From contig JAIOXO010000013.1 in the NCBI GenBank assembly GCA_022396035.1, positions 1 through 45,236 on the forward strand: a DNA stretch of 45,236 bases, written 5' to 3'. The notes under the pieces were generated by a model, which did not search any database, was not told the origin of the DNA, and saw only the letters and a program-made list of their open reading frames with translations. The stretch comes from Actinomycetes bacterium (GTDB lineage: Bacteria; Actinomycetota; Humimicrobiia; Humimicrobiales; Humimicrobiaceae). Positions within the stretch are counted from its first letter, which is position 1. Every line of letters starts with the position of its first letter. This document shows positions 17,976-45,125 of this stretch, in pieces. The translations under genes were made by a program, and so were the position numbers.

Positions 17976-18116
17976 ATTAAGTAAAATATTCTACTCTATT
18001 TAAGCCCTTAATTTAATCAATAAGTTTGGTTAACCTAATTTTATTTTAATTGTCTATCTAACCCAAATATGTTACCATCCCTGCTTAGATTAAATGGTCT
18101 AAAACGAGGAGTTTAT

Positions 18117-18904
18117 ATAAATATAGTGGTATGTATAAAACAGGTGCCCGGGACCTCCAAGGTAAACATAGACCCTAAAACAGGAGTTCTCATAAGAAGC
18201 GGTATTGATACCAAGATGAACCCCTATGACCTGTTTGCCCTGGAAGCTGCTTTAAAAATAAAGGAGGAAAAAGGCGGCACCATAAAGGTCATAAGCATGG
18301 GTCCCCCGCAGGCTGCAGATGTTATAAAAGAAGCTTACATGATGGGAGCTGATTAGGGGGTTTTGCTTTCCGATAAGAGTTTTGCCGGCGCTGATGTGCT
18401 GGCCACCTCCTATACCCTGTCACAGGGTATAGAAAAGCTTGAACCCTATGATTTGATTATTTGCGGAAAACAGACTACTGACGGCGATACTGCCCAGGTA
18501 GGGCCGGAGATAGCAGAGTTCTTAAAAATACCACATATAGCTAATGTGCTCAGCATACTTCAGCTGGATGCAGAAAGCATGTGGTTGAAATGGACATGCC
18601 CAACACCATAGAAATTGCCAAGTTGAATTATCCCTGCCTGATAACCGTAGAAAAGGATATATATGAACCCCGGCTGCCATCATTTAAGAAGAAGGTAGCT
18701 ACCAGGGATAGGGAAATTAAGGTACTGAGCTTAAAAGATTTCAAGGATCAGGATACCAACAAATATGGTCTTGACGGGTCACCAACGCAGGTAGAAAAGG
18801 TTTTTCCTCCTCCCCAGGATACCAGCCAGGAAAAATGGAGCGGAAGCCCTGAGGAGGCTGCGCAGAAAATTGCAGATAAACTCAGAGAATTAAAGTACAT
18901 ATAA
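18117..18904 (+). pseudogene. etfB: Electron transfer flavoprotein beta subunit, disrupted by three lesions
   Basis: Reading through the damage gives a normal EtfB of 262 residues: [29 protein letters not shown], then [36 protein letters not shown] and LPSFKKKVATRDREI. Lesion one: the expected ATG, 5 nt after GAGGAG (18106-18111), is ATA at 18117. Lesion two: an in-frame TAG at 18354-18356 within GAD-stop-GVLLSD, where homologues have a charged residue. Lesion three: one G is missing near 18579-18583, so SMVVEMDMP is read as SMWLKW. Each spoils translation and together they are convincing as decay rather than recoding. EtfB would pair with the EtfA gene 14 nt downstream to pass electrons to or from the flavin oxidase. 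Confidence 0.9.
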
Positions 18905-37071: not shown

Positions 37072-37644
37072 CTAAATATTATTTCTGAGACTAACATGGG
37101 TATCCAGTTTTGTAGTATTGTCGGTTTGGACACCCTGACTATCCATGCTCAGACTTATGCCTATTATACCAATATCTTCCAGTTTTTCCTGTTCTACTGG
37201 ACTTAAAATCTGTTGCTGATCTGAATAATAGTAGCTGAAAAAATCAGAATTTATTATATTTTTGGTAATCTCCACCGGTTGATTGCTGCCTACAATCTTA
37301 TAAAGATTATAAGATTCACCTTCTAGTTGAAGGTAGTAACTGATTTCTTCTACCACCTGGTCGCTATTTATATCACTATTGAAGGTAATATAATCAGATT
37401 CTGCTCTTATCATCTGGGTTGTCTCTCGCAGTTCCCTGGTTAGGGTATAAATGGTAGTTCTTGCTTTTCTTTCTATAGTGGAAGATTGCAATACCAGCTG
37501 CGATGCTTTACTGGATGTAAAATAAGTTAAAGTAATTGCGGCAACCACTATTATCATAAGCATTAATACCAGTAATACTTCTATCATGGTATAGCCTGAC
37601 TGCTTTTTAAAATAGCTAGGTACTTTGGATTTCACTGGGCCCAC
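37072..37644 (-). CDS. Type IV prepilin-like minor pilin (PilW/GspJ-like)
   Basis: About 190 residues. The class III signal is KKQSGYTMIEVLLVLMLMI with cleavage expected after Gly, leaving Tyr1 and Glu5, followed by a long hydrophobic helix. The rest is a short globular domain (IYTLTRELRETTQMIRAES, EEISYYLQLEGESYNLYKI) like PilW/GspJ minor pseudopilins. The GTG at 37644 has GGAG six nt upstream. A frame from 37677 adds residues that overlap the end of the preceding prepilin and would be unlikely. It overlaps that gene by about 29 nt. Confidence 0.82.
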   Translation of the reverse strand: MGPVKSKVPSYFKKQSGYTMIEVLLVLMLMIIVVAAITLTYFTSSKASQLVLQSSTIERKARTTIYTLTRELRETTQMIRAESDYITFNSDINSDQVVEEISYYLQLEGESYNLYKIVGSNQPVEITKNIINSDFFSYYYSDQQQILSPVEQEKLEDIGIIGISLSMDSQGVQTDNTTKLDTHVSLRNNI

Positions 37645-38320
37645 TTTCAACTCCATCTTCATAAACTGCAGTAACAAAATAAATATAAATAATACCTGTT
37701 TCAGGATTATCTATATAGCCGGTATTCAAACTGGTTCCTATTAACTCGTAGTCACGATATATATTATAACCGGTAACCACAGAATCAGTATCAGGTGCAT
37801 TCCATTGTAATATAACCGTCTCATCATCATAACCTCTATCTATATACAGTCCGTAAGGCGCAGGGTGTTGGTTTAATTGTTCATCCCCGGTTGAAACAAC
37901 AGCAGGAAAAACAAGGGTAATGACCTTAACTTCCTCTACCATGGGCTGCTTATAGGCACTAACCGATATCTGCTTGTAATTCTGTGCATCATCAGCCCAC
38001 CCTATATTATAATTTACCCTGTATCCGTCTTCAGTGTTAACCTGTGCTTCCAGTATCCCCTCCGGATCGGAGCCAGTTAAACCGATATCCTGATAATCCA
38101 TAGCCCTTATTTTTTCTATTTCTTCATTAACAATATTTAATGCTACCGTCTTAGCCTGGTTTATCTGGGAAGTGTTTAAGGCCATGGTAGTACTGTGAAT
38201 AACCACACCGGTAATGATGGAAATGATAAACAAGGCAACTATTACCTCCACCAGAGTGAAGCCATCCTGGTCCTTACCCTTTTTCAGGGCACACTTGAAT
38301 TTATTGAATAATGCTGCCAT
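37616..38320 (-). CDS. Type IV prepilin with C-terminal fibronectin type III domain
   Basis: The 234-residue protein begins with a basic leader and the class III signal KDQDGFTLVEVIVALFIIS, giving cleavage after Gly20 and Glu5 in the mature form. A PilV/GspI-like region continues to about 130 (MALNTSQINQAKTVALNIVNEEI). From about 150 to the end is a fibronectin type III-like domain (PYGLYIDRGYDDETVILQWNAP, GYNIYRDYELIGTS, YIYFVTAVYEDGVESGPSEI). The fusion would display a beta sandwich on the pilus, likely for adhesion or subunit contact. The next gene is another prepilin, so the two may be assembled together at the tip. Confidence 0.85.
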   Translation of the reverse strand: MAALFNKFKCALKKGKDQDGFTLVEVIVALFIISIITGVVIHSTTMALNTSQINQAKTVALNIVNEEIEKIRAMDYQDIGLTGSDPEGILEAQVNTEDGYRVNYNIGWADDAQNYKQISVSAYKQPMVEEVKVITLVFPAVVSTGDEQLNQHPAPYGLYIDRGYDDETVILQWNAPDTDSVVTGYNIYRDYELIGTSLNTGYIDNPETGIIYIYFVTAVYEDGVESGPSEIQST

Positions 38321-42008: not shown

Positions 42009-42545
42009 TTAAGGATTAATTTGATAATATGTTCTTCCATATACCAGACCTATCATATCAGGATAACCTTCTGCAGCCAAACCCAGTTCAGTACTGTCCA
42101 GGCTGATAGACCTGGGCATCGATTCCAGTGCTTTTAGAAACACCAGTAAATCATAGTAGGTACCCTTAACTGTGATATTGATATCTATAGCCATAATCTC
42201 TTCCTGATCGCCAGCATCCACCTCATTGTAATTTACCGACTGGATATCCACATCCGCAAACTGTGCAATATTATAGATTTCATTGGTTAGAACCTGAATA
42301 TCAGTTTTACTGGGCAACTCTACGGAATATTTCTGGTACTGGGCATAAAGTATATTGAATCTATCCTTCAGACCGGAAAGCTGGTTTATCCTTTCAGCAA
42401 GCTGCCGGTTAGTTTGCCTCTGTTCCTGTATTGAATTCTGTGTACCCATATTGGTTCTAAGGGCAGGCATTATAAATACCAGAAATACTGCCAGCATAAC
42501 CACAATAATTATTACTATAATTAATATTCTGAGAGTATTAGTCAT
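42009..42545 (-). CDS. pilO: Type IV pilus assembly protein PilO
   Basis: A 178-residue bitopic inner membrane protein. A single N-terminal helix (LRILIIVIIIVVMLAVFLVF) is followed by a coiled coil (NSIQEQRQTNRQLAERINQL) and a ferredoxin-like periplasmic domain, with IDINITVKGTYYDLLVFLKALESM and SLDSTELGL typical of PilO. It forms the alignment complex with PilN and PilM. It starts 15 nt after pilN. Confidence 0.9.
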   Translation of the reverse strand: MTNTLRILIIVIIIVVMLAVFLVFIMPALRTNMGTQNSIQEQRQTNRQLAERINQLSGLKDRFNILYAQYQKYSVELPSKTDIQVLTNEIYNIAQFADVDIQSVNYNEVDAGDQEEIMAIDINITVKGTYYDLLVFLKALESMPRSISLDSTELGLAAEGYPDMIGLVYGRTYYQINP

Positions 42546-42560
42546 AATTTATTCAAACTC

Positions 42561-43226
42561 CTATTCTAAATCCTGCTGCTGTTCCGGTTCTTCCTTTTTT
42601 TCACTAATATCCCATTCTTCTATCAGTCTTCCGGTATCCCAGAAGGTGGCCACCGCAAAATTCAATCCATTGACCCCTTCAGTTACCTGGGCTTGACTAA
42701 TGCTTTCAACCCAGGCATCACCAATGTATGGAATTTTTTTCAAACCTATTATTAACCGGGAAACATCAGTATAATCATTTGCATATCCCCGAATGGTAAA
42801 ACAGGTTACCTTCTGTCCGCTAATTTCTGCTGAATATTCTTCTACAAATTTCTCTAAATCAGCCATGCTTCCCTCAAAATTGGTCAAACTGGCTTTGGGA
42901 GGTACTGCCTCCCCCAGGTTATAAATAATATCAGACCACAATACATCTTTGTCTTCGATTGAATCCACTAACTGGGCTTTCTTCTGTACTTTTTTCTCAA
43001 ATTGCTCATAAATCTCTAATTTATCTACATACTCCTCCAGCTTTCCCCCTGTATCCTGGTATTGGGCTAAATTTGAATTAAGGTCTTTTGCCCTATCCTT
43101 TATTACAATAAAAGACATTACCATTGCTGCAAGCAGTATAATTAGCAAAACTATAACCACATTCAAGGTTACAGTCCTTTTATTAAACGCTCTCTCTTTT
43201 TTGGGAAGCAGGTCTATATATTTCAA
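42561..43226 (-). CDS. pilN: Type IV pilus assembly protein PilN
   Basis: A 221-residue protein. The short cytoplasmic tip KYIDLLPKKER is the conserved PilM-binding motif (IDLLP versus the family INLLP). A transmembrane helix lies near 19-45, then a coiled coil (LEEYVDKLEIYEQFEKKVQKKA) and a periplasmic domain with CFTIRGYANDYTDVSRLIIGL. It overlaps pilM by 4 nt, so intact pilM translation would be coupled to it. Confidence 0.92.
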   Translation of the reverse strand: MKYIDLLPKKERAFNKRTVTLNVVIVLLIILLAAMVMSFIVIKDRAKDLNSNLAQYQDTGGKLEEYVDKLEIYEQFEKKVQKKAQLVDSIEDKDVLWSDIIYNLGEAVPPKASLTNFEGSMADLEKFVEEYSAEISGQKVTCFTIRGYANDYTDVSRLIIGLKKIPYIGDAWVESISQAQVTEGVNGLNFAVATFWDTGRLIEEWDISEKKEEPEQQQDLE

Positions 43227-44351
43227 AGGCCATACCCCCTTAAAGCCATCCCTATGGCCAGGGTCAGCTGATTGGCAAAATGGTTAAGATCCTTATTCAG
43301 ATAATAGGTTTTTTTATTTAATACATCCAGGTTGAAATAGTTGCCTACATTAAACTGTTCTACCTCAAAGCCAGTCTCCTTTTTGATTAATAGATCAAAA
43401 TTCTTAAAAGTATCGCCACTGATTATAATTTTTTCTATATTATAAGTAGAATAACGATTTAAGAAATAATCTATGGAACGGTTTATTTCATTTATGAACT
43501 GACTGCTAGCTTCTTTTATAGCAATGTTTAAGGTAATATCATGGTCATCTTTTCTTACAGAAGTTTCAGTATCTCCCCCCCATTCCCGGTTCAAGATTTC
43601 TGTCAAACTGCATATCCAGGGACTGGTCAAAATCAAAATCATCCAGTATTTTTTCAATATCCCCATAACTTTTATTGGTTTTCTTACTTATGTAATCAAT
43701 AAAGGTTTTTATACTGATATTACTGAACCGGGGAAATTTTAGCTGGTTGCCGGTCAACATATTTATTATGGATATGTCCTTTCCTATATTAACCAGGCAA
43801 TAGGCATTCTTCTTATCTGTAGCTTTCTGGCTCTGGAAATGATAGGCAGTATTTATTACCCGGTACAGGGAAAAACAATTAAGATCTATGGCCACAGGGT
43901 TTATTCTAATGTTTCTTAAGCTCTCCACAATACTGTCAACCATATTTTTGGCAGCCCCGGCAATCATGATATTTGATGATTCATCATCCTTATCCACCAC
44001 AAAATAATCATAGGTTATATTATTTTTAGAAATGGGTACCAGATCATTAATTTGATACTTTATGGAAGACTCTATCTCACGGTCATCGGTAATAGGCAGT
44101 TTTATCTCTTTTATAATAACTTTAGGATTGGACAAACCCACAAATACTTTTCGGGAACCAAACCGGTAATACCCCCATATATCTTTTATGGCGCTGGACA
44201 CTACCCTGGTGTCTTTTATCTCACCTTTTTCTATAACCTGCTCGGGCACTTCAAACACCGCAGCATTATCTATTATAAAGGTGTTCCTTTTTTTAGTTAC
44301 CTCCGCTACCGCTATCCGGTTGGAGCTTATGTCCATGCCTATGTATCCCAT
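43223..44351 (-). pseudogene. pilM: PilM-like actin-fold ATPase, frameshifted at a seven-G run
   Basis: The N-terminal 257 or so residues are a standard PilM: YIGMDISSNRIAVAEV, IKEIKLPITDDREIESSIKYQI, IMIAGAAKNMVDSIVESLR, VAIDLNCFSLYRVI and CLVNIGKDISIINML (the second phosphate-binding region). At coding-strand G7 (43575-43581) the frame moves, ending in PGMGGRY-stop at 43566. The remainder continues in another frame as DTETSVRKDDHDITLNIAIKE, NEINRSIDYFLNRYSTYNIE and IISGDTF. Six Gs would restore one 375-residue PilM, the usual family length, ending in an ATGA overlap with pilN. PilM is the cytoplasmic platform contacting PilN. Phase variation, decay and a sequence error remain possible. Confidence 0.85.
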
Positions 44352-44360
44352 TTAATCTCC

Positions 44361-45125
44361 TTAAAAATAACCCAGATACCAGTTAATTATAATATTTCCC
44401 CAGAACAGCGCAATAATGCTGCCCAGGGAAATAAAAGGGCCAAAAGGGATAGCCTGCTTAAATTTTTTCTTTCTGGTGGCTATAAGGACCAACCCGTATA
44501 TGGAACCGATCAAAAAACCTGCAAACAAAGCCACAATAACTGATTTTACCAGGAATGCCCCCACCATAAGAGCCAGTTTTACATCACCCATGCCCATTCC
44601 TTTGGGGTATATAAGGTGTATGATCAGCATAAAAACAAAGGCACCGACGCTAAAGGCCAGAGGCATCCACCACTGGGATGGCCTGTCAATTATATTCAGC
44701 GCAATCCCTACCAGAGTCATGGGCCAGGTAATAGAATTGGGTATAATTCTAAACTGTATGTCTATGACCGAAATTGCTATCAGGGCACTTACCAGTATCA
44801 GGCCAATTAAAAGTTGAATGGTTATTCCAAAAAAATAAAAGACCAATAGAAACAGTAAAGCTGTTGCCAGTTCTACCAGGGGATATATATACGGTATTTT
44901 TGCCCCGCAGCTGCGGCATCTCCCCTTTAATACCAGATAAGATATCAGGGGTATATTGTCATAAAAAGCTATCCTTGCTTTGCACCGGGGGCAGATAGAA
45001 AAGGTAGGCTTGTATATAGAAAGTCCCCGGGGAATACGATAAATTACTACATTTAAGAAACTTCCTACTATAAGGCCGGCTATAAATAGTATTATATATA
45101 TTAGTATGTCTGCCATTTCTGCCAT
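44361..45125 (-). CDS. pilD: Prepilin peptidase / N-methyltransferase (A24)
   Basis: The 254-residue polytopic membrane enzyme cuts and N-methylates type IV prepilins, matching the two prepilin genes downstream. GSFLNVVIYRIPRGLS is the family start. CPRC and CRSC form the zinc site (about residues 44-75). The catalytic aspartates are in SVIDIQFRIIPN and GMGMGDVKLALMVG, and AIPFGPFISLGS is the conserved end. The ATG at 45125 has AAGG 7 nt upstream; a second ATG three codons in (45116) is possible. It is the first gene of the pil chain in the window. Confidence 0.93.
   Translation of the reverse strand: MAEMADILIYIILFIAGLIVGSFLNVVIYRIPRGLSIYKPTFSICPRCKARIAFYDNIPLISYLVLKGRCRSCGAKIPYIYPLVELATALLFLLVFYFFGITIQLLIGLILVSALIAISVIDIQFRIIPNSITWPMTLVGIALNIIDRPSQWWMPLAFSVGAFVFMLIIHLIYPKGMGMGDVKLALMVGAFLVKSVIVALFAGFLIGSIYGLVLIATRKKKFKQAIPFGPFISLGSIIALFWGNIIINWYLGYF

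Follow-up and report, generated by a model that had tools for sequence, protein, structure and literature searches.

The pilM gene of an uncultured member of the Actinomycetota, encoded on the minus strand of the analysed window (the whole stretch of DNA that we examined, 45,236 nucleotides long, which is the entire contig C13 of a 1.6-Mb genome in 40 contigs), is interrupted in its reading frame, and the two frames that together encode PilM join at a run of seven G nucleotides. In this one draft genome, the break is probably a real and recent loss of function through slippage at the G tract. Since such a tract is able to slip back, the loss would in principle be reversible by chance. If the break is real, it is a case of pilus loss by homopolymer slippage in a lineage that apparently has neither MutS nor NucS; if it is an error, it is a caution against calling switches from a single draft genome.

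pilM is divided between two reading frames at a G7 tract

The coding-strand G7 tract of pilM occupies positions 43575-43581, where direct reading of the letters gives C7 on the plus strand. The N-terminal piece of the gene (43566-44351, minus strand) encodes 261 amino acids and ends with a stop codon at 43566-43568, 6 nt downstream of the tract. The C-terminal piece (43223-43564, minus strand) lies in another frame, which is open over 43226-43687, and its conserved sequence begins at about 43560. From start to stop, pilM spans 1129 nt, a multiple of three plus one nucleotide, which agrees with the arithmetic by which the sequence-only reading had found one G too many for a normal PilM. The frame needed for full-length PilM is open across the tract, and the third frame is closed.

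Both pieces are recognized by the Pfam family PilM_2 (PF11104): the N-terminal piece matches profile positions 1-232 (E 1.3e-26, 93.8 bits, with a cut-off of 27), and the C-terminal piece matches positions 253-339 (E 6.9e-6, 25.7 bits). Solved PilM structures also match the N-terminal piece. The gene has the characteristics of the PilM/PF11104 family, with the domain extending over most of the protein and with pilN and pilO adjoining, except that a single full-length open reading frame is absent from this genome. Since its frame is interrupted, we classed the gene as a broken pilM. We also considered that the C-terminal part might restart as a separate protein, and rejected this candidate: no ATG, GTG or TTG codon occurs before 43249, so this part is not a second gene.

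The open reading frames, the matches to PilM_2 in two frames and the direct reading of the letters therefore bear out the earlier claim that the G7 run interrupts PilM. As in a contingency locus, the two frames join at the tract, so that a change in tract length would toggle the frame. Judging from the sequence, the G7 run is the most likely location of the indel, although its exact position is uncertain: because the linker in which it lies cannot be aligned with that of relatives, the indel can be placed only within approximately 43565-43600 (about 35 nt).

No aligned relative carries the tract, and the lesion appears to be young

In an alignment of PilM with 11 proteins from ten other genomes of the family, the break falls in a linker between the two conserved halves of the protein, and this linker is highly variable in both length and sequence. 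Each of the 11 is an intact PilM, and at the linker site a G run is found in none of them. The sister genome (G002), which belongs to the same genus, encodes an intact PilM of 373 amino acids, to which the N-terminal part of the interrupted protein is 75% identical, and at the tract site it has unrelated sequence with no G run. Of three genomes in the same genus, two (79% and 84% complete) gave no detectable pilM. Scanning the contigs of named genomes with the N-terminal part returned a single distant relative and nothing else, and viral contigs contained no match to the PilM protein or to a 20-nt pattern adjoining the tract. Comparison with related genomes at the tract site, which had been suggested as a check on the idea of a switch, thus speaks against it.

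Relative to the sister genome, pN/pS is 0.19 for the N-terminal half of pilM (41st percentile of genes) and 0.28 for the C-terminal half (69th percentile). These ratios indicate that both halves still show purifying selection and look recently functional, which suggests that the lesion is young. Relative to the sister, synonymous rates have reached or nearly reached saturation, and the lesion can therefore be dated no more closely than 'recent'.

The other pilus genes are intact, and the assembly ends at pilA

The sequence-only reading had described the neighbouring pil genes as intact, and this was confirmed for pilD, pilN, pilO and the prepilin genes, and it extends to pil genes elsewhere in the genome. 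All of those in the window are on the minus strand: pilN (42561-43226; 221 amino acids, with a TTG start), pilO (42009-42545; 178 amino acids; PF04350, E 3e-13), pilD, which encodes a prepilin peptidase (44361-45125; 254 amino acids; PF06750 and PF01478), and two genes for prepilin-like proteins with an N-methylation motif (37616-38320, PF07963, E 3.5e-8; and 37072-37677, PF07963, E 9.2e-5). Outside the window, pilT and pilC, which lie at the end of contig C2, are likewise intact, as is pilB, on contig C7. In none of these genes did we see a further lesion.

The start of pilN overlaps the stop of pilM by 4 nt, as had been proposed. Its start codon at 43226 is TTG here versus ATG in the sister, and a Shine-Dalgarno-like sequence, AAGGGGG, just upstream of pilN is the same in both genomes. 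It is uncertain that loss of pilM would uncouple the translation of pilN, which has this Shine-Dalgarno-like sequence of its own.

The gene order in relatives is pilT-pilC-pilA-pilD-pilM-pilN-pilO, and the contig end (45126-45236) stands where this order would place the major pilin gene, pilA. As both flanking contigs end at pilA, this gene is absent from the assembly. Of 11 genomes of the family, 7 have an assembly that is interrupted at pilA, in the pilC-pilD interval, where a simple random-break model predicts 1.06 (P ~1e-5 under that model); the seven are this genome (G000), G002, G026, G008, G015, G016 and G017. In G002 and G026, the contigs that flank pilA overlap by one k-mer (exactly 127 nt), which marks a branch in the assembly graph. 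One explanation of the repeated breaks may be that pilA is variable among strains, and diversifying pressure on the pilus locus would be in keeping with them.

Long G and C runs are avoided in a lineage in which MutS and NucS were not detected

MutS_I was found in none of the six family genomes searched (G000, G001, G002, G003, G023 and G026), versus 11 of 14 controls. NucS, the substitute for MutS in many Actinobacteria (PMC5290159), gave no match above the cut-off in the same six genomes and one sub-threshold match in G023. WhiB, for which Corynebacterium was the one control of 14 to give a match, was matched in 6 of 13 same-phylum genomes tested, which points to Actinomycetota as the phylum.

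We compared homopolymer runs in samples of this genome (828 kb) and of the sister (1.16 Mb), taking expectations from within-gene synonymous shuffles that preserve codons. G runs of at least 7 in genes number 7 against 19.3 ± 4.7 expected (6 against 24.8 ± 4.3 in the sister), and C runs of at least 7 number 4 against 14.4 expected (2 against 12.7 in the sister). By the same shuffles, G runs of at least 5 exceed expectation, and A/T runs show no depletion. Having no detected MutS and an under-representation of G/C runs of at least 7, the lineage thus has the features of mismatch-repair deficiency with homopolymer avoidance. It would seem that G/C runs of 7 carry a cost here, probably because they slip. 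In Mycobacterium tuberculosis, which likewise lacks MutS, context-dependent codon choice keeps long runs rare, but A/T runs, unlike those here, are depleted too (PMC2430213). Within the 828 kb sampled there are 18 G/C runs of 7 or more, most of them within intact open reading frames of ordinary genes, and a G7 run is therefore unremarkable in itself. An unusual abundance of G tracts was considered and discarded, the density being 21.7 per Mb here versus 18.9 in the sister. With such runs avoided in the genes of these genomes, those G/C runs of 7 or more that remain would be natural hot spots at which function could be reversibly lost.

A possible course of events

In the reading that we favour, a +1 slipped-strand mutation would have occurred in the G tract within the variable linker of pilM, an event made likely by the absence of detectable MutS and NucS in the lineage, and the broken allele would now be carried by most of the sampled population. 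PilM acts in an alignment subcomplex with PilN, PilO and PilP. Loss of the C-terminal part from the actin-like PilM should halt pilus assembly; the truncated product of 261 amino acids, which has lost that part of the fold, would thus be predicted not to support assembly, and cells of the broken genotype would presumably be non-piliated or poorly piliated. The loss might be neutral, or it might be favoured, for example by phages that use the pilus. In pilus-phage-resistant Pseudomonas aeruginosa, pilM is the most often mutated gene, and its mutations include truncating deletions of a single G (PMC13170266).

Sequencing error, evolved switching, decay and recoding as alternatives

The sequence-only reading had weighed sequencing error against real mutation at the G7 run, and we judge that weighing sound. 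If the base were an error, pilM would be intact in the population and the consensus would hold one spurious base in the G run. An error would fit a single lesion that is isolated in an otherwise constrained gene and operon, and G7 is a classic error context. By the criteria of the GeneTack authors, pilM is a singleton frameshift, and hence either an indel mutation or an error, and these authors expected most BLASTp-validated singleton frameshifts to be sequencing errors (PMC3711429). Furthermore, this genome and the sister each show a few isolated indels per half megabase. Among about 530 genes comparable between the 828 kb of this genome and the 1.16 Mb of the sister, three are clearly broken here, namely pilM, etfB and a gene for a protein resembling PLP-dependent sulphur-amino-acid lyases; two of the three, pilM and etfB, share one contig, which could reflect locally poor sequence. 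However, only in pilM does the break lie at a long homopolymer, and the lesions in the other two genes lie outside homopolymers. In the 828-kb sample, 441 coding runs of 7 or more (432 A/T and 9 G/C) are read in frame, against one exception, which rules out a systematic homopolymer problem and with it the candidate explanation of widespread homopolymer error. Contig ends overlap exactly, by 139 nt in this genome and by 127 nt in G002 and G026, which indicates assembly on a k-mer graph and thus, we infer, short accurate reads, in which spurious indels are a concern chiefly for tracts longer than 14 bp (PMC8808543). Since a graph assembler normally outputs the majority path, the broken length of pilM, if real, would be that of the majority. 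We therefore regard sequencing error at the G7 run as the less likely origin of the break, to be held as a rather doubtful reading but a serious one.

It is considerably less probable that selection keeps the tract as a hypermutable on/off site for piliation, an idea close to that of the sequence-only reading, which had called it a possible phase-variable pilus switch. The out-of-frame tract does lie early enough to cost a third of PilM, pilM is a surface-structure gene in a lineage in which no MutS or NucS was found, and seven Gs are just enough for the Campylobacter cut-off, which is set at 7 or more (PMC6321876), and equal the tract length of M. tuberculosis glpK (PMC6667613). Yet a contingency locus would be expected to have its tract retained in relatives or enriched in the genome, and here the 11 other family PilM proteins aligned have no G run at the site, G/C runs of at least 7 are depleted rather than enriched in the genes of both this genome and the sister, and the other long G/C tracts sampled are, for the most part, within intact open reading frames of ordinary genes. 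Campylobacter tracts proven to switch are, moreover, of 8 or more (PMC6321876). The claim of a switch is thus unsupported: the tract is found in this genome alone, lies at the floor of the length range, and is of a class that the genome avoids. Similarly improbable is the broader conjecture that, in a class of the Actinomycetota with no detectable MutS or NucS, ordinary G tracts of 6-7 bases slip fast enough to serve as reversible switches, pilM being one of them, so that a population could shed its pili, when attacked by phages for instance, and regain them later. An ongoing decay of the pilus system, once pili had become dispensable, would account for a broken pilM, for the two breaks in etfB on the same contig, and for the patchy occurrence of pili in the family (PilO is present in 11 of 15 family genomes tested); we consider it very unlikely, given that pilB, pilT, pilC, pilD, pilN, pilO and the prepilin genes are intact (pilA being outside the assembly) and both halves of pilM are still constrained. 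We give even less credence to recoding, in which the ribosome or the transcribing polymerase would slip on the G run and some full-length PilM would result. Seven identical bases, an in-frame stop 6 nt downstream and a required frame that is open across the tract would suit it, but no slippery site is conserved among the 11 aligned orthologues, as would be expected of programmed frameshifting, a -1 ribosomal shift enters the closed frame, and the slippage tracts known from bacteria consist mostly of poly-A/T (PMC3711429). Weighing the criteria for singleton frameshifts together with the evidence on switching, we thus prefer a recent, potentially reversible slip and do not claim an evolved switch.

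Comparison with known systems

The nearest precedent is the G7 tract of M. tuberculosis glpK, in which expansions of GGGGGGG recur (PMC6667613) and reverse (PMC8339072). Both cases concern the same phylum, a seven-G run in a coding region, a one-base expansion that truncates the protein, and the absence of MutS. However, in M. tuberculosis reversal has been demonstrated and the allele recurs in many isolates, whereas the pilM allele comes from one genome; in addition, the out-of-frame length is here seven itself, and the gene is a pilus gene. In P. aeruginosa exposed to the pilus phage PO4, as here, the pilM gene of a type IV pilus is hit by a loss-of-function indel, but those indels were selected in the laboratory and are not demonstrated homopolymer switches (PMC13170266), and selection by phages is a conjecture in the present case. 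Campylobacter poly-G genes likewise have a coding G tract whose length sets the frame. In the PhasomeIt analysis, their tracts are taken from 7 G/C upwards, switch experimentally at 8 or more, and usually have 9-10 Gs (PMC6321876); they are abundant and recur across strains, whereas the G7 run of pilM is unique and lies in a genome that avoids such runs. The absence of MutS and NucS may lower the tract length needed for hypermutability. The PilM proteins of G002 and of Thermus thermophilus (2ych) are actin-like pilus assembly proteins of PF11104, like the one studied here, but intact.

Other lesions and G/C tracts in the genome

The broken etfB gene (electron-transfer flavoprotein beta; window positions 18069-18904, plus strand) carries two lesions, an in-frame stop codon (TAG) at 18354 and the loss of one base near 18585. 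It lies upstream of an intact alpha gene, the etfB of the sister is intact, and contig C4 of this genome carries another intact ETF pair. The gene resembling PLP-dependent sulphur-amino-acid lyases, on contig C5, lacks one base that the sister copy has (at about position 4305 of L149).

The longest G/C tract of the genome is a C13/G13 run on contig C1 (G000:C1:110604-110616; L109, 10604-10616). It is situated within a SAM-methyltransferase-like gene, in the downstream portion, and the same gene also contains an in-frame TAA (L109, 10486-10488). As a candidate site of variation in tract length, this run is stronger than the one in pilM. A G9 run on contig C26 (G000:C26:13437-13445; L162) lies between divergent genes, which encode a 509-amino-acid protein and a cation-efflux-like protein, and variation in promoter length is possible at this site.
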